Shown piece after piece: positions 15,063-59,454 of a DNA stretch of 64,000 bases (the stretch's first letter is position 1; each line of letters begins with the position of its first letter). Both the position numbers and the translations under genes were made by a program. Source of the stretch: an uncultured Verrucomicrobia subdivision 3 bacterium (GTDB lineage: Bacteria > Verrucomicrobiota > Verrucomicrobiia > Limisphaerales > UBA8199); contig CAIWMU010000214.1 in the NCBI GenBank assembly GCA_903913865.1, positions 1-64,000 of the forward strand, given 5' to 3'. The notes under the pieces were generated by a model. The model was given only the letters and a program-made list of their open reading frames with translations, did not search any database and had not been told where the DNA came from.

Positions 15063-16130
15063 TCAGGGCTTATCGCAAGCAGCTCTGGCATGCCAGGCGG
15101 CCGTTCGTTGCAGGGATTGCGCCAGCCCGATCGTAGGGCGCAGTCCCAATTCTGTGGTGGCTCGTTTCGTCGATGGCACATAGCGCTGAGCAGGACAATC
15201 CCGCTGAGGCGTGCAGGCGGTCACAACTTTGGCCTGCGGGTTCAAGGCGCTGCACACCGCTTCGGCCAGGCCGGAAATGCTGATGGCATCTTCAGATCCG
15301 ACATTGTACGGGTGGCAGGATTGACCACGCAAAAGTATGGTCCAGAGCCACACAGCCAGATCTGCTGCGTAAAGGTAGGACCGCTGCGGGGTTCCATCCC
15401 CGGTTATCTTCAAAGTGTTCCCAGCCAGTGCGTCCCGAACAAAGTTGCCAATGGCAAAATGAGCATCCAGAGGAAGATGGGGGCCAACAAAAGCAAATCC
15501 ACGCGCGATCTTTGCGTTCAGTCCGTATTCCCGGTGATACAGAGCGCACAACAACTCAGCAACGCGCTTCCCCTCAGCATAGGCACTCGCCGGGCTCATC
15601 AGATCAGGTGCGCCGCTAAAGGTCTCCGGCATGTGCGTCATCTCAGGGGGCTGTTTTCCATAAACAGCTCCCGAGCTTGTAAGTAAAAAGTTCCTTGCAC
15701 CGCCTTGCACAGCAAATTGCAGAGCACGACGCGTGCCATCCACAGCCACCTCTAACATCCGCAGCGGTGATTCCTCATTCAAATGGGTTGCCGATTCTGT
15801 AGCCGCATGAATCACATGGGAAAAGGTTCCGCCGGGAAACTCAAACGAGCACACATCTCCAGCGTGAAGTCTGATGGCAGGGTCTGAAGCAAGGTGTGGT
15901 GCTTTTCGCCGGAACGCTTCCGGGTCACGGGATAGCGCCACAATCCGGGCTCCAAGTCCATATCTGCGGTTGGCCTCGGCAAAACTTTCCAGCAACCATC
16001 TGCCAAAAAAGCCAGTGCCCCCTGTGATGAAAATCGATTCCCCACGCAACTCTTCCCACAAGCCTTCAGTATGGGCCATGATGTGGTCCAGATCCTCCTT
16101 GGGACAGGTAGATGCGTGGTTCAGGTTCAT
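15063..16130 (-). CDS. NAD-dependent nucleotide-sugar epimerase/reductase
   Basis: A 355-residue extended short-chain dehydrogenase. It shows the nucleotide-binding FITGGTGFFGRWLLE, VIHAATES, the catalytic serine region LTSSGAVYGKQP and the catalytic Tyr-Lys pair in SAYAEGKRVAELL. It belongs to the NAD-dependent epimerase/dehydratase family. Its start overlaps the stop of rfbH (TGATG), so it is translationally coupled to the CDP-3,6-dideoxyhexose genes. The likely step is reduction or epimerisation of the keto sugar made by RfbH, for example giving CDP-abequose, -paratose or -tyvelose. In a yersiniose-type route it would be the reductase acting after the thiamine enzyme. The exact product cannot be told from the sequence. 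Confidence 0.8.
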   Translation of the reverse strand: MNLNHASTCPKEDLDHIMAHTEGLWEELRGESIFITGGTGFFGRWLLESFAEANRRYGLGARIVALSRDPEAFRRKAPHLASDPAIRLHAGDVCSFEFPGGTFSHVIHAATESATHLNEESPLRMLEVAVDGTRRALQFAVQGGARNFLLTSSGAVYGKQPPEMTHMPETFSGAPDLMSPASAYAEGKRVAELLCALYHREYGLNAKIARGFAFVGPHLPLDAHFAIGNFVRDALAGNTLKITGDGTPQRSYLYAADLAVWLWTILLRGQSCHPYNVGSEDAISISGLAEAVCSALNPQAKVVTACTPQRDCPAQRYVPSTKRATTELGLRPTIGLAQSLQRTAAWHARAACDKP

Positions 16131-17567: not shown

Positions 17568-18677
17568 TTAGCCTCTCGCCCAAGGCAGTTCCCTGAGTTT
17601 GGCTTGGCGGCAATAGGTGTCGATTTGCGAGAGGGTCAGGTTGTGGATGGCATCGGTCTGCTGTGCGACCTCCGCCTGCTTATACCACGAGACGGTTTGA
17701 GCCACAGTCTCCTCAAAGCTCCAGACCGGAGTCCAAGCCAGTTCCTGGCGGGCTTTGTCTGTGCAGAGTTGAAGCAGTCTTGCCTCGTGGACGGCTTTGG
17801 CACTCGTAACCGTTTCCCATCTGCCCTCCCAATGGCGAAGAACTTCCTCCACCAGATTTGAAACAGGGCGATTGGACTCATTACCGGGACCAAAATTAAA
17901 GGCACTGCAGGGCTCGACTCCGTTCAGGTGCTGTCGTCCCCTCCCCGCCATGACTGCTCCCAGCCAAAGGTAACCGCTGAGCGGTTCCAAAACATGCTGC
18001 CATGGCCGAGTTGCGATCGGGTTTCTCACTGGCACAACATCGCCCCGGCTCAGATGGCGGATGCAATCCGGCACGATCCTGTCCATGGCCCAATCACCAC
18101 CGCCGATGACATTCCCCGCACGGGCACTTGCAATTTTTACGGGGTGGTCTGCAAAGAAGGACTGGCGGTAGGCCTGAATCACCAGTTCGGCAGCGGCCTT
18201 GCTCGAGCTGTAAGGGTCACACCCGCCGAGGGGATCCCCCTCCCTGTATCCATAAACCCACTCCCGATTCTCGTAACACTTGTCGGTCGTGATGAATACA
18301 GCTGCGCAGGGCTGGCGGAGGTTGCGAAGTGACTCCATCACATGGACTGTTCCCAGAACATTCGTGGCATAGGTCTCCACCGGTCTGGTGTAACTCTCAC
18401 GCACCAGAGGCTGGGCCGCGAGATGAAAGACAAAATCTGGCTGGGCGGCGTTAATCGATCGCTGGACTGAAGCCAGATCACGCACGTCACCCATCTCGTT
18501 TACAACCCGATCCGACAGGCCCACCTGTTCAAACAAAGCGGGTTGTGTTGGGGCTGGCAGGGAAAACCCGTGAACCTTCGCCCCCATTTTGACCAGCCAC
18601 TCGGCCAGCCAGGAGCCTTTGAATCCCGTGTGGCCGGAGAGCCATACAACCTTGCTGTCATAGGCACCGTCGAACAT
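17568..18677 (-). CDS. rfbG: CDP-glucose 4,6-dehydratase
   Basis: A 369-residue extended short-chain dehydrogenase. The N-terminal VVWLSGHTGFKGSWLAEWL is the NAD-binding motif and is characteristic of RfbG. Also seen are FHLAAQPLVRESY, ETYATNVLGTVHVM, VFITTDKCYEN and the catalytic YSSSKAAAEL. It converts CDP-glucose to CDP-4-keto-6-deoxyglucose, the substrate of RfbH. The ATG at 18677 comes two bases after the rfbF stop; the frame is open upstream into rfbF, but that extension has no family similarity. Part of the rfbFGH operon; cytoplasmic. Confidence 0.93.
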   Translation of the reverse strand: MFDGAYDSKVVWLSGHTGFKGSWLAEWLVKMGAKVHGFSLPAPTQPALFEQVGLSDRVVNEMGDVRDLASVQRSINAAQPDFVFHLAAQPLVRESYTRPVETYATNVLGTVHVMESLRNLRQPCAAVFITTDKCYENREWVYGYREGDPLGGCDPYSSSKAAAELVIQAYRQSFFADHPVKIASARAGNVIGGGDWAMDRIVPDCIRHLSRGDVVPVRNPIATRPWQHVLEPLSGYLWLGAVMAGRGRQHLNGVEPCSAFNFGPGNESNRPVSNLVEEVLRHWEGRWETVTSAKAVHEARLLQLCTDKARQELAWTPVWSFEETVAQTVSWYKQAEVAQQTDAIHNLTLSQIDTYCRQAKLRELPWARG

Positions 18678-18679
18678 AT

Positions 18680-19453
18680 TCACCACACCTTCCAGGGCGG
18701 CCGGCCGGAGAGATACATTTTCTCCAATTGCTGCTGCTCCCGGTATGTGTCCATGCACTGCCAGAATCCGGCGTGTGCAAAGGCATGAACCCGTCCTTCC
18801 GACGCCATTCGCGTCAACGGTTCTTGTTCGAGAACCGTCTCGTCGTTTTCCAGATAATCGCCGACGCCCTTGCTGAAGACGAAAAAGCCCCCGTTAATGT
18901 ACTGGTCATCTGCTTGAGGCTTCTCCTTGAAGGCGGTCACGCGCGTTTGCTCAACCTTTATGTCGCCAAAGCGCGAGGCAGGCCTGACACCAGTGATGGT
19001 CGCAAGGCCTCCGTGCTGCTTGTGAAAGGCTATCGACTCGTTGATGTTGCTATTGATGAGCCCGTCACCATACGTTGCAAGAAAGGTGTCAGAATCAATG
19101 TATGGAAGCGCCCGAAGCAGTCGCCCCCCGGTTTGCGTTTCCTGCCCGGTATCAAGCAGGGTCACATTCCAATCCTCTTCCGAGTGGTGGGTGTGATAGG
19201 TAACCCGGGGGTTGGACCCCAGGCTCAAAGTCACATCGCTCGTGTTCCAGTGGTAGTGCCGGAAGTAGTCCTTGATTACCTCCCCCTTGTAACCGAGGCA
19301 GAGGATGAAATCCTTGTGCCCGTAATGGGCATAGATTTTCATGATATGCCACAAGATCGGCCGGTTGCCCACTGGCACCATCGGCTTCGGCCGGAATTCC
19401 GTCTCTTCGCGCAGACGGGTTCCCAGGCCACCGCAAAAAATCACCACCTTCAT
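18680..19453 (-). CDS. rfbF: Glucose-1-phosphate cytidylyltransferase
   Basis: A 257-residue nucleotidyltransferase making CDP-glucose from CTP and glucose-1-phosphate. The start MKVVIFCGGLGTRLREET...RPKPMVPVGNRPILWHIMK is diagnostic, followed by FILCLGYKGEVIKDYF and FLATYGDGL. The length is right for RfbF. A ribosome site (AGGAAGG) lies about 12 bases before ATG. It is the first sugar gene after flagellin (138 bases downstream of it on the same strand), so the CDP-sugar pathway begins right behind the flagellin gene. No convincing terminator was seen in that gap, so read-through from the flagellin promoter is possible. Confidence 0.93.
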   Translation of the reverse strand: MKVVIFCGGLGTRLREETEFRPKPMVPVGNRPILWHIMKIYAHYGHKDFILCLGYKGEVIKDYFRHYHWNTSDVTLSLGSNPRVTYHTHHSEEDWNVTLLDTGQETQTGGRLLRALPYIDSDTFLATYGDGLINSNINESIAFHKQHGGLATITGVRPASRFGDIKVEQTRVTAFKEKPQADDQYINGGFFVFSKGVGDYLENDETVLEQEPLTRMASEGRVHAFAHAGFWQCMDTYREQQQLEKMYLSGRPPWKVW

Positions 19454-19591: not shown

Positions 19592-20404
19592 TTACTGGAG
19601 GAGGCGCAGCACGCTTTGCGGGAGCTGGTTTGCCTGGGCCAGCATCGCTGTGCCGGATTGGGAAAGAATGTTCTGTTTCGCAAACTCGGTGGATTCCTCG
19701 GCCACGTCTGTGTCCTGGATCCGGGAGCTGGCAGCGGAGAGATTCTCCTTGCTGACAGTGAGTTGCTCGGATGTGTAATTCAGGCGGGTCTGGAAGGCAC
19801 CAATGTTCGCGCGGTCCTTCGAAAGTTGGGTGATCACGTTCTTGATCTCCGTGAGGGCGGCAGCGGCTGCACCAGTCGTCGACACATTCACCGAACCGGA
19901 ATTGACGACAGTCGAGTAGGGAACGGCAGCCATGTCGAGGCCCGCCATGGCAAAGGTGGTGCCGTCGGAATCAATCGCCACCTCAAGATTGGAGGGGGAG
20001 AACAGGCTGACGCCGTTGAAATCCTTCGTGGCGGCGGAGCTGATGTAGCTCTGGAGCTGGGAGAATTCCTTGTTATACAGGTCGCGGTCGGAATCGGTCT
20101 TCGTGCCGTCCTGTGCCAGGATGGAAAGTTCGCCCATGCGGTCCAGGGCCTTGCCGATCTTCTGCACATACCCATGCTGGGTCTGGACGAAGGAGACGGC
20201 GTTGTTGACGTTGTATTTCGCGGCCTGGATGCGGTTGATCTGGGCATCGATCCGCGAGGCGACTGCCAGTCCGGCAGCATCGTCGGAAGGCTGGATGATT
20301 CTGGTGCCGGAACTCAGGCGGGCCAGGGACTTGCTCAACCGGGTCTGCGTGGTTTGCAGGTTGTCCGAGTTGATTTGGGCTTGAATGTTCGTATTAATGA
20401 CCAT
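19592..20404 (-). CDS. fliC: Flagellin
   Basis: A 270-residue flagellin of the short type. The N-terminal D0/D1 region (MVINTNIQAQ, LSKSLARLSSGTRI, DDAAGLAVASRID) and C-terminal region (IGAFQTRLNYT, ESTEFAKQNILSQSG, ANQLPQSVLRLLQ) are intact. The central part is short, so the outer D2/D3 domains are essentially absent. That region is rich in Ser/Thr (STVVNSGSVNVSTTG), which are candidate O-glycosylation positions. It follows csrA by 47 bases and precedes the sugar operon. No normal Shine-Dalgarno sequence is seen before the ATG. It assembles into the extracellular filament. Confidence 0.95.
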   Translation of the reverse strand: MVINTNIQAQINSDNLQTTQTRLSKSLARLSSGTRIIQPSDDAAGLAVASRIDAQINRIQAAKYNVNNAVSFVQTQHGYVQKIGKALDRMGELSILAQDGTKTDSDRDLYNKEFSQLQSYISSAATKDFNGVSLFSPSNLEVAIDSDGTTFAMAGLDMAAVPYSTVVNSGSVNVSTTGAAAAALTEIKNVITQLSKDRANIGAFQTRLNYTSEQLTVSKENLSAASSRIQDTDVAEESTEFAKQNILSQSGTAMLAQANQLPQSVLRLLQ

Positions 20405-20439
20405 GGTAGTTTATTATTTTATAGGTTTGAACATGACGG

Positions 20440-20444
20440 TCCGT
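20440..20444 (-). promoter_or_regulatory. Possible CsrA-binding ACGGA in flagellin leader
   Basis: The 47-base leader between csrA and flagellin contains ACGGA about 35 bases before the ATG, in the loop of a short GAC/GTC stem. CsrA recognises ANGGA in loops, and CsrA represses flagellin translation in Bacillus-type FliW/CsrA systems. The leader otherwise is A/T-rich, with no second GGA at a ribosome site, so a classic two-site arrangement is not visible. Confidence 0.3.
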
Positions 20445-20451
20445 GTCTGAG

Positions 20452-20718
20452 CTAAGCCGGCGTTCCTGCCGGCAAAGGGGTGGCGGGCGCCTCTGTGGGG
20501 CGCGCAGCCGAAAGTTTTGGTACAATCCGCGGGCCCTTCGTGAGCGCCGCCTTGTTATTGAGCTGGATTTCCTCGTACACTTCCTGACGGTGAATGGGCA
20601 CCTCTGTCGGGGCGGAGATGCCAAGCTTCACCGTGTCTCCATCGACGCGCACCACCTTCACAATGATGCGTCCATCAATTACGATGCTCTCGTTCAGCTT
20701 GCGGGATAAAATCAACAT
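20452..20718 (-). CDS. csrA: Carbon storage / flagellin translational regulator CsrA
   Basis: An 88-residue RNA-binding protein. The first 60 residues are a standard CsrA: MLILSRKLNESIVIDG, VVRVDGDTVKLGISAPTEVPIHRQEVYEEI. The RNA-binding Arg near position 6 and the VPIHRQEVY strand are present. A Pro/Ala-rich tail of about 25 residues follows, longer than in enteric CsrA. It lies between fliW and flagellin. In this arrangement CsrA blocks flagellin mRNA translation and FliW, when not bound to flagellin, releases it. Its gene is 11 bases from fliW, so they are probably cotranscribed. Confidence 0.95.
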   Translation of the reverse strand: MLILSRKLNESIVIDGRIIVKVVRVDGDTVKLGISAPTEVPIHRQEVYEEIQLNNKAALTKGPRIVPKLSAARPTEAPATPLPAGTPA

Positions 20719-20729
20719 AAATCCTTATG

Positions 20730-21146
20730 TTATGCCACCGATGTGGACAGCGGATGGCACACAGAATACTGGGCGGCATTGGTCGGAATGACCTGCCTGC
20801 CCACCTGGGTGTGGCGGTTCACCACAATCGGCCCCTTCAGGTTCAGGGTGGCCTGCCCCATGCCGGTCATGGTGACAATATTAAAGACCACTGCATCCTC
20901 CGGGCCCTTCAGCTTCAGGAATGCAATCTCGCCCTCCGGGAGGTCGGGCCGGTAATCCGGAATCACCGTGAAAGGGGAAAGAACCAGAAACGCCAGGTTC
21001 GGGTCATCCTTCACCTGCAGCCATTGGAACGGCTCCTCCCCGGGATTCGCCACCAGCACGAAATCCAGAATTTGCTCAAACCCCAGTAACCCGTAGGGCA
21101 ACCGGATCTGACTCTCACACGCTCCTAGAACTGCGGACGGCTCCAT
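20730..21146 (-). CDS. fliW: Flagellar assembly factor FliW
   Basis: A 138-residue FliW with IRLPYGLLGFEQILDFVLV, FQWLQVKDDPNLAFLVLSP and a VFNIVTM segment typical of the family. It binds flagellin and CsrA allosterically, coupling flagellin supply to translation. The start at 21146 leaves 14 residues before LPYG, as in known FliW proteins. In-frame ATGs at 21164 and 21200 also exist, but the first leaves almost no leader and the second lies upstream of a sigma-54 promoter at 21179-21194, so it could not be used from that transcript. First gene of the fliW-csrA-flagellin unit. Confidence 0.9.
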   Translation of the reverse strand: MEPSAVLGACESQIRLPYGLLGFEQILDFVLVANPGEEPFQWLQVKDDPNLAFLVLSPFTVIPDYRPDLPEGEIAFLKLKGPEDAVVFNIVTMTGMGQATLNLKGPIVVNRHTQVGRQVIPTNAAQYSVCHPLSTSVA

Positions 21147-21178
21147 GCTTTCAGCGACATTCATTCTGGGAGCCAGAT

Positions 21179-21194
21179 AGCAACGCCCGTGCCA
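21179..21194 (-). promoter_or_regulatory. Sigma-54 promoter of fliW-csrA-flagellin
   Basis: The minus strand reads TGGCACGGGCGTTGCT, an essentially perfect match to the sigma-54 consensus TGGCACG-N4-TTGCW with correct -24 GG and -12 GC spacing. Transcription would begin near 21168 and run into fliW, csrA and flagellin. An NtrC-type activator with an intact GAFTGA loop is encoded at 57967-59454 beside flagellar/chemotaxis genes and is a candidate activator. Confidence 0.82.
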
Positions 21195-21294
21195 AACCAA
21201 AATCCGGGCTGGAATCGCCCTCCAAATTCCCTTTTTGCCCTTGGAACCTCCCGATTACCCCTTTAATACCGTGCCCGGGCGGAAGTTTTTGACC

Positions 21295-21313
21295 CTCCCG
21301 CAGGGAGTTTTTT
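21295..21313 (+). terminator. Short hairpin with T-run upstream of purC
   Basis: CTCCC-GCA-GGGAG followed by six T, about 115 bases before the purC start. The stem is only five pairs (slightly more if flanking C/G pairs), so a role as a terminator or attenuator in the purC leader is tentative. A separate CCCCCCGGGGGG palindrome lies at 21355-21366. Confidence 0.35.
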
Positions 21314-21428
21314 GCCCCTCCGCCCATTTTGGGTGGCCATTCAAGCCCTCCCTCCCCCCCGGGGGGCACCCTGCTCCCACTCCCATTTCCGCTTTGACCT
21401 TTTTCATCCCCTCCCCATATTTCTCCAC

Positions 21429-57966: not shown

Positions 57967-59454
57967 CTACTCCCCCTCGGCAACATCCTCGAGTCCCTCG
58001 ACAGGGGCTCCGTTTGCCTTGTATTCCTGAAGCTTGTTGCGCAGCGTCCGAATGCTGATCCCCAGCAACCGGGCCGCCTGGGTGCGGTTGTTTCCCGTCT
58101 TTTCCAACGACGCAAGGATATGCCGCTGCTCCAGTTCCGAAAGACTTGGAAACGGTTGGGTGGATGGCGCGGCTGCCACGGCAGGCGGGGCCACCGGCAC
58201 AGTGACTGATGCCGGCGGACTGGCCGATTCGATCACCACCCCCACAGGAACAGCCACAATCGGAGCCGCATGGGGATGTGGAGCGGGGGGCAGGGCAAGG
58301 CCGAAATGTTCCGGATCCAAAACGGGCGAATCCGTTGAGAGGATCACGGCCCGCTCAATCACATTCTGAAGTTCCCGCACATTCCCGGGCCAGGGGTGCC
58401 GCTGCAGAAGATCAAGGCTCTCAGCAGAAATACTTCGGGGTCCAACACCATGCTTCCGGGCAAACCGGCCCACAAAACTCTCGGCCAGACAGGGGATGTC
58501 CTCACGCCGGTCTCGCAGGGGCGGAACAGATATGGGAACCACGTTGAGCCGGAAAAACAGGTCCTGCCGGAATTCCTTCTTCTCCACACTTTGCTCCAAC
58601 TGGCGGTTTGTGGTCGCGATGACCCGCACATCCACCTTGAGCGTGCGGCTCCCTCCCACCCGCTCAAACTCCCGCTCCTGCAAAACCCGTAGCAACTTGG
58701 CCTGAACACTGGGGGAAATCTCACTGATTTCATCCAGCAGAATCGTCCCTCCGTGGGCCAGCTCGAACCTGCCCTCCCGCTTGTTCATCGCCCCGGTAAA
58801 GGCCCCTTTTTCATGTCCAAAAAATTCACTCTCAATCAGGTTCTCCGGGACGGCGGCACAGTTGATCTTGATGAACGGCGCATCCGCACGGGGACTTTCC
58901 AGATAGAGAGACCGGGCCACCACTTCCTTGCCGGTGCCACTTTCCCCCTGAATCAGAACAGTCGCCTGGGTCCGGCCCACCTTGCGGATGAGCTGGCGAA
59001 GGTTCTCCATCGCGGGGCTGCGCCCGAGCAACTCCCCGCCAGCGCTGGCCTCCTCCTGGCTAAGGAACTGGTTGACCTTCAAAATCCGGGTGAAGGACTC
59101 AGCCTTTTTCAGAACGATGTCGATCTGCTCGGTCGAAAAGGGCTTGATCAGGTAGTCAAAAGCCCCGTTGCGCATACATTCCACGGCAGATTCAACAGAA
59201 CCGAAACCGGTGATCATCACTGCCAGCGGTTTCTGCGGACGGGCTTGAAGCAACTTCAGAAGATCGGTCCCCTCCCCATCGGGCAGGCGGACATCGAGGA
59301 AAATCAGGTCGAAATTGTCTTTGGCCAGGTATTCCTGGGCGGCGGCAATGGTGGAGGCGGAGGCAACGTCATACCGCCGCTGCCGAAGCTGCTGCTCCAG
59401 ATTTTTTCGGACGATCAGGTCATCTTCCAGAACGATGATTTTCTCTATGGGCAT
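57967..59454 (-). CDS. NtrC-family sigma-54 response regulator
   Basis: A 495-residue activator. The receiver domain (1-120) has acidic residues ED/D at 10-12, phosphoacceptor Asp54 (FLDVRLPDG) and Lys104. The AAA+ domain (140-375) has Walker A GESGTGKE near 170, the sigma-54 contact loop GAFTGA at 217-222, and GGTILLDEIS. A Pro/Val/Ala-rich linker leads to a Fis-type DNA-binding helix (NNRTQAARLLGISIRTLRNKLQEY). It lies last in the flagellar/chemotaxis-type operon and is a good candidate for the activator of the sigma-54 promoter before fliW. No partner histidine kinase is in the window. Confidence 0.93.
   Translation of the reverse strand: MPIEKIIVLEDDLIVRKNLEQQLRQRRYDVASASTIAAAQEYLAKDNFDLIFLDVRLPDGEGTDLLKLLQARPQKPLAVMITGFGSVESAVECMRNGAFDYLIKPFSTEQIDIVLKKAESFTRILKVNQFLSQEEASAGGELLGRSPAMENLRQLIRKVGRTQATVLIQGESGTGKEVVARSLYLESPRADAPFIKINCAAVPENLIESEFFGHEKGAFTGAMNKREGRFELAHGGTILLDEISEISPSVQAKLLRVLQEREFERVGGSRTLKVDVRVIATTNRQLEQSVEKKEFRQDLFFRLNVVPISVPPLRDRREDIPCLAESFVGRFARKHGVGPRSISAESLDLLQRHPWPGNVRELQNVIERAVILSTDSPVLDPEHFGLALPPAPHPHAAPIVAVPVGVVIESASPPASVTVPVAPPAVAAAPSTQPFPSLSELEQRHILASLEKTGNNRTQAARLLGISIRTLRNKLQEYKANGAPVEGLEDVAEGE

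Follow-up and report, generated by a model that had tools for sequence, protein, structure and literature searches.

The DNA analysed here, a 64 kb stretch referred to as the window, carries the genes for FliW, CsrA and flagellin (fliC) together on the minus strand (Table 1), and thus all three partners of the FliW-CsrA-flagellin control unit. The host is related to subdivision 3 Verrucomicrobia; the relatives identified through its FliW protein are Verrucomicrobia, the nearest (68 % identity) being the subdivision 3 metagenome-assembled genome UBA693. purC, upstream of fliW, is transcribed in the opposite direction from about 21429.

Table 1. Features of the window relevant to transcription of fliW, csrA and fliC
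Feature	Position	Strand	Evidence or remark
Flagellin gene (fliC)	19592..20404	minus	Pfam Flagellin_N and Flagellin_C
csrA	20452..20718	minus	Pfam CsrA E 1.8e-23; NCBIfam csrA above cut-off
fliW, 144 aa, start ATG 21164-21162	20730..21164	minus	Pfam FliW E 3.6e-33
Predicted transcription start (+1)	21168	minus	12 nt past the -12 GC, counted from its C (21180); predicted from usual spacing
Sigma-54 core promoter TGGCACG-GGCG-TTGCT (-26 to -11)	21179..21194	minus	Exact consensus; same place in 133/142 fliW loci of the order
Candidate enhancer 1, centre about -119	21278..21296	minus	12.8 bits, moderate match; p 0.027 versus random stretches
Candidate enhancer 2, centre about -142	21301..21319	minus	12.6 bits, same fliW-derived matrix
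Candidate flagellar enhancer-binding protein	57967..59454	minus	Receiver, sigma-54 AAA+ with GAFTGA, Fis-type HTH; co-occurrence and linkage with fliW

Read on the minus strand from 21194 to 21179, the sequence TGGCACGGGCGTTGCT matches TGGCACG-N4-TTGCW with 0 mismatches, with the GG and GC pairs at their fixed spacing and a TGGCAC-N5-TTGC core. The original prediction of a near-perfect sigma-54 site at this position, within an open frame and directed toward fliW, csrA and flagellin, therefore describes the sequence correctly, except that the upstream ATG it placed at 21200 is a TTG codon (21200-21198). In the congeneric loci L034 and L038, a TAG immediately before the site closes the equivalent upstream frame, with no start codon in between; hence, the open frame in the window is incidental.

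This is the single exact match in the window, where 0.015 are expected from the base composition (59 % G+C), as against 1.4 per genome and 1.7e-5 for the 150 nt upstream of a given gene. When up to three mismatches were allowed, the window contained 106 matches with 115 expected, and these loose matches are the product of chance; the exact match alone stands out. The whole genome (6.27 Mb) includes five exact matches, but when the ORFs were read by eye only two of them, the one before fliW and one at C67:415-430 (locus L004 of the window's genome, G000), were found directly before a correctly oriented gene. The latter precedes a 188-aa secreted-type ORF that begins 73 nt past the core and, thus, not every such site in this genome is close to a start codon. 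The remaining three, two in contig C15 and one in C119, lie inside or antisense to long ORFs and were set aside on reading. At one mismatch or fewer there were 50 sites in the genome compared to 70 for a reversed-pattern control, indicating that most matches of this quality are background, and the broader pattern TGGC-N8-TGCW-N10-16-ATG (104 genome matches versus 21 reversed) was too unspecific to be of use. Hence, the exact match by itself is modest evidence and would not prove a promoter; it is the conservation of the site that does so.

Of the 320 genomes in the order, 133 have FliW, at 142 places in all. Only sites conforming to a rule that was fixed after the first loci had been inspected were counted: GG at -25/-24 and GC at -13/-12 were required, no more than three mismatches in total were allowed, and the site had to start 60-135 nt before the FliW domain match. 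A site was present at the same position in 133 of the 142 places (125 of 133 genomes). Three of the nine exceptions (L118, L173 and L237) are cut by contig ends, leaving 133 of 139 testable loci with a site and six without (L087, L098, L099, L139, L141 and L231). Using the same rule, no site was found in 140 reverse-complemented stretches, and first-order shuffles gave a mean of 4.65 and a maximum of 10 of 140, the search stretch behind the count of 133 being slightly narrower than that used for the 140 stretches (134 matches). Stretches further upstream yielded 1 of 136 and 0 of 137, and the interior of fliW 1 of 142. Beyond the required GG and GC, T -26, A -22 (100 %), T -14 and T -11 (99 %) are near-invariant, and these bases are merely favoured, not required, by the three-mismatch limit. 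When one locus per genus was considered, the site precedes fliW in 60 of the 61 genera that have the gene; kinship is reduced in this way here and in the learning of the palindrome described below, and by taking one position per genus in the phasing analysis, but it is still present. In the same class outside the order, only four of 51 fliW loci (L264, L285, L290 and L293) have the site, the sample being 51 of the 52 listed fliW places with G382 left out. Judged by its sequence, the site before fliW is a real promoter-like element that has been kept across the order, and it marks this order plus a few relatives.

A search for rpoN, proposed as a check on the original prediction, revealed one gene in the window's genome (PF04552, E 2.2e-58, C79:2905-3378), and rpoN is found in 292 of the 320 genomes of the order. 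No rpoN match was obtained for eight of the 133 fliW genomes (G029, G058, G086, G132, G136, G143, G205 and G298, with the list compared by eye for the last two), some of which still carry the promoter site, and assembly gaps likely lie behind the missing matches.

The site is shared with other flagellar genes. A matrix built from the fliW promoters of other genomes was used to scan the window's contig and six other genomes (approximately 512 kb in seven stretches), and 20 of the 22 sites of at least 14 bits fall at four flagellar positions, before fliW, flgB, fliK(-flgD) and flgF. The stretch from G055, which covers the activator region only, included no site of at least 14 bits. FlgB is above its own NCBIfam cut-off, FliK, encoded before FlgD, matches Pfam at a sub-threshold level (E 8.8e-5), and FlgF was assigned from matches to the FlgE/F/G families. 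The other two sites, C214:15738 and C214:88610, occur in the window's genome only. C214:15738 was rejected, being unconserved and having no palindrome in the 250 nt upstream. C214:88610 precedes a small ORF and a FliA-type gene and has an enhancer-like palindrome of 17.3 bits, and sigma-54 control of fliA is not claimed because the site has no 14-bit counterpart in four relatives with those genes. The small membrane-type ORF between flhF and the FliA/WhiG-type sigma factor gene (83 aa, C214:88640-88891, corresponding to L227:6640-6891) is kept at 35-40 % identity in four relatives, and its place resembles that of FlgV, as far as FlgV is described in the available part of PMC11607428, a likeness by gene position only.

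A palindrome, cGGcAAAatTtgCCg, was learned from the regions upstream of fliW using one sequence per genus (59 sequences). It scored 13.6 bits, while six shuffled learning runs gave 7.1-8.8 bits; the seed was taken from an enrichment scan and the matrix was learned on fliW upstream regions only. Applied to 15 other flagellar promoters, the fliW-learned palindrome gave a combined p of 1.4e-8. All five genomes have it before flgB, with its centre 60-62 nt from the core, and four of five have it before flgF at p 0.06 or better. Before fliK it is clear in one of five (p 0.01), reaches p 0.10 in another, and is weak or absent in the other three, including the window's own. Palindrome positions relative to the fliW core recur with a period of 10.5-10.75 bp (105 positions were collected, of which those beyond -200 were dropped; p about 4e-9 for the best of 25 periods), and this phasing argues against the palindrome being a terminator. 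A copy of 11 bits is missing from 37 of 129 fliW promoters. The palindrome is, thus far, a candidate enhancer for the flagellar activator. A strong copy (15.9 bits) also lies at 15975-15993, within the epimerase gene among the sugar genes and near the weak site at 15738.

The NtrC-type activator gene that had been put forward as a candidate in the original prediction fits this role, given its GAFTGA motif and its co-occurrence with and linkage to fliW. At a threshold of E 1e-140, set beyond the 7e-117 reached by the best paralogue in ten test genomes, an orthologue is present in 131 of the 320 genomes of the order, 110 with fliW and 21 without, while 23 fliW genomes lack one at this threshold and 166 genomes have neither (Fisher p 4.6e-40, uncorrected for kinship). 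The two genes lie on one contig and no more than 55 kb apart in at least 11 genomes, including that of the window; this is a minimum obtained by comparing 57 activator places with most of the fliW places, and for G060 the linkage relies on a split match. In G055, a genome of one contig, the two genes are 389 kb apart. Outside the order but within the class, an activator homologue was found in 51 of 52 fliW genomes at E 1e-120 (compared by eye; this threshold may admit paralogues), although 47 of 51 fliW loci there are without the promoter site. Hence, the activator is not specific to the fliW promoter. It looks like an older flagellar regulator, to which the fliW promoter would have been added in the order.

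Among the loci with at least 1.1 kb of sequence downstream of fliW, csrA follows in 129 of 130 and fliC comes after fliW and csrA in 107 of 130, so that the gene unit named in the original prediction is borne out, nearly everywhere for csrA and in most loci for flagellin. The extension of sigma-54 control to the sugar genes behind it was not upheld, as a homologue of the first sugar gene comes after flagellin in only three of the same 130 loci, and the congeneric locus L038 has no sugar gene homologue within 2.9 kb downstream of flagellin. A scan of the minus strand from 21500 to 18600 found nothing resembling a terminator, so that transcription may read through into the sugar genes of the window. 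These genes encode a glucose-1-phosphate cytidylyltransferase and a CDP-glucose 4,6-dehydratase (17568-19453, both above NCBIfam cut-offs), followed by DegT-type and epimerase genes, and perhaps make a glycan for the cell surface or flagellin. The minus strand at 20405-20475, covering the flagellin leader and the end of csrA, includes two potential hairpins with GGA loops, GCCGGC-AGGAAC-GCCGGC and GACACGGACCGTC, that are candidate CsrA sites. The second has a counterpart in the congeneric locus L034 and in L152, and potential GGA-loop hairpins were found in the flagellin leader of 21 of 109 loci compared to 8.65 expected. The 51-nt flagellin leader alone folds no better than shuffles.

The original prediction also held that the site fixes the fliW start downstream. 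The start is indeed downstream, at the ATG at 21164, but the site itself says nothing on start codons; the placement comes from the stop codon in the congeners and the conserved N-terminus, with homology to the FliW of L038 beginning at residue 1. Transcription is predicted to begin at 21168, using the usual sigma-54 spacing of 12 nt past the C of the -12 GC. The promoter would then abut the gene, and with only about 4 nt before the ATG the mRNA should be almost leaderless. For comparison between loci, n was defined as the number of bases separating the -11 T from the start codon, and the predicted leader is n minus 10. As start codon we took the first ATG in frame that lay 9 nt or more beyond the core or, failing that, a GTG. 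In the 133 fliW loci, n was 12-17 in 67 (predicted leader 2-7 nt), 18-22 in nine, at least 23 in 49, and 9 or 11 in eight, where the start was probably wrongly assigned. By genus, n is short in 31 of 60 and at least 18 in 33. For flgF, n is 12-15 in all five genomes (leader 2-5 nt), with N-termini homologous from residue 1, and for fliK an n of 15 (leader 5 nt) was found in three of five with ATG, or five of five if GTG is accepted in two genomes, while n for flgB is 22-30. Thus, fliK, flgF and half of the fliW genes would give almost leaderless messages.

Shine-Dalgarno-like cores are rare in these genes, being found before eight of 61 internal flagellar genes and five of 13 promoter-proximal genes, and a short leader may be tolerated rather than selected, given that internal genes are mostly without such a core too. 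In 13 of the 67 short-n fliW loci, a Shine-Dalgarno-like core overlaps the promoter and lies outside the predicted transcript. In one family, f56 (L073, L093, L120, L136, L140 and L142), the promoter overlaps with a good Shine-Dalgarno sequence directly behind its -12 element. This sequence is also outside the predicted transcript, which hints at a second, upstream promoter there; perhaps it serves read-through from an upstream gene. We tentatively propose, at somewhat less than an even chance, that the flagellar sigma-54 genes of the order as a whole are expressed from nearly leaderless mRNAs, with transcription starting 2-7 nt before the fliK, flgF and, in about half of the genera, fliW start codons. 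If it is true, the spacing would be a kept design, FliW, the CsrA antagonist, would be immune to leader-binding repressors such as CsrA, and its translation would be independent of Shine-Dalgarno pairing.

Sigma-54 promoters are silent until an enhancer-binding ATPase acts. In the model we favour, fliW, csrA and fliC form an operon whose -24/-12 promoter is this site; RNA polymerase with sigma-54 (RpoN) would read it, and it would be silent in the same way until activated. The likely activator is the response regulator encoded at 57967-59454, which may bind the palindromes some 85-165 bp upstream of the transcription start, all on the same helical face. The flgB and flgF operons would have the same arrangement and the fliK operon the same core promoter, so that FliW, CsrA and flagellin would be switched on together with the rod and hook genes. 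Taken as a whole, including the shared flagellar promoters and the phased palindromes, we consider this model highly probable.

The possibility that the site is a chance match without function, simply one of five matches to the 16-base consensus in the genome, would fit the positions of the three exact matches inside or antisense to genes and the lack of any excess at three mismatches in the window. It is refuted by the conservation before fliW, unless the loci share this stretch for another reason: the site has the same strand and distance in 133 of 142 loci while the controls gave 0-10, and the same core precedes flgB, fliK and flgF. We regard it as extremely improbable. A functional sigma-54 promoter could instead be driven mainly by another activator, one responding to nitrogen, stress or other signals. 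The genome contains 13 Sigma54_activat matches, ten of them strong, and the 21 genomes in which the orthologue of the 57967-59454 activator is found without a fliW match are also consistent with this reading. Set against it are the co-occurrence and linkage of that activator with fliW, an association assessed for this activator only, and control mainly by a different protein seems decidedly unlikely.

Two further alternatives concern the ends of the transcript. Flagellin may be expressed mainly from its own sigma-28-type promoter, with the sigma-54 transcript covering only fliW and csrA. A FliA/WhiG-type sigma factor is encoded in the genome at C214:88888, and the late flagellar genes of Campylobacter are FliA-dependent according to the accessible portion of PMC4894983. 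However, in the gap between csrA and fliC neither sigma-28-like nor sigma-70-like boxes were in excess in 111 loci, with sigma-28-like boxes (no more than three mismatches) in 14 compared to about 24 per shuffle set. This favours a shared transcript, and a separate main promoter for flagellin appears rather unlikely; another sigma-54-like match falls between the two genes in nine of the 111 loci. At the other end, fliW might be translated from the next in-frame ATG, present in the window at 21146, giving a 22-nt leader and a message that is not near-leaderless. However, the homology to the FliW of L038 already begins at the first ATG, the second one is missing from L034, and no Shine-Dalgarno sequence precedes 21146, making this reading very improbable. 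We retain the start at 21164 and a flagellin gene that is probably read from the fliW promoter.

The elements of the proposed regulon have counterparts elsewhere. It is well established that flagellar rod and hook genes can be under sigma-54 control, and CsrA-FliW-flagellin homeostasis is known from Bacillus subtilis and Campylobacter jejuni. The same three partners are found here, adjacent in what would be one operon, which, unlike in those systems, would be led by a sigma-54 promoter. A parallel in way of working is offered by Caulobacter FlbD and its ftr sites, where an activator of the NtrC type is likewise paired with an A-rich, GC-flanked site close to sigma-54 flagellar promoters; the ftr consensus may resemble cGGcAAA, a likeness that the texts searched do not mention. 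Identity with FlbD is not implied, as the window's activator is below the NCBIfam cut-offs for both FlbD (389.9 of 750 bits) and FlgR (323 of 750).

Middle (class 2) flagellar genes depend on RpoN in Campylobacter, Helicobacter, Vibrio, Pseudomonas and Caulobacter, with FlgR, FlrC, FleR and FlbD as activators. Sigma-54 promoters at rod and hook genes and an activator of the response-regulator type are features in common with these class 2 systems (PMC3930126 and PMC7064773), while a sigma-54 operon of fliW, csrA and fliC, as predicted here, and an activator under the FlbD and FlgR cut-offs are differences. In a 2025 survey of sigma-54 promoters, such promoters were predicted for motility genes in Opitutia (Verrucomicrobiota) and for csrA in Planctomycetia; its text makes no mention of fliW, and an order-wide fliW promoter, an enhancer and start-codon spacing are absent from the portion available (PMC12316311). 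Likewise, neither fliW nor Verrucomicrobi- occurs in the review PMC3930126, and terms for a fliW promoter or fliW mRNA are absent from the Campylobacter paper PMC4894983. Searches for fliW together with sigma-54, Verrucomicrobia or leaderless found no paper on the operon, in a scope that mostly left aside subscription papers and preprints. As far as the literature was searched, the order-wide sigma-54 promoter of fliW-csrA-fliC, the candidate pair of activator and enhancer and the short start-codon spacing are new.

To our knowledge, flagellar control is poorly known outside the Proteobacteria, Firmicutes and spirochaetes. The arrangement described here would define a flagellar regulon, concrete enough to be tested, in a verrucomicrobial order represented mainly by metagenome-assembled genomes; it is made up of sigma-54, one conserved activator, a helically phased enhancer candidate and four target operons. 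Sigma-54 would also govern the feedback loop of FliW, CsrA and flagellin, whose first gene may be translated from a near-leaderless message.
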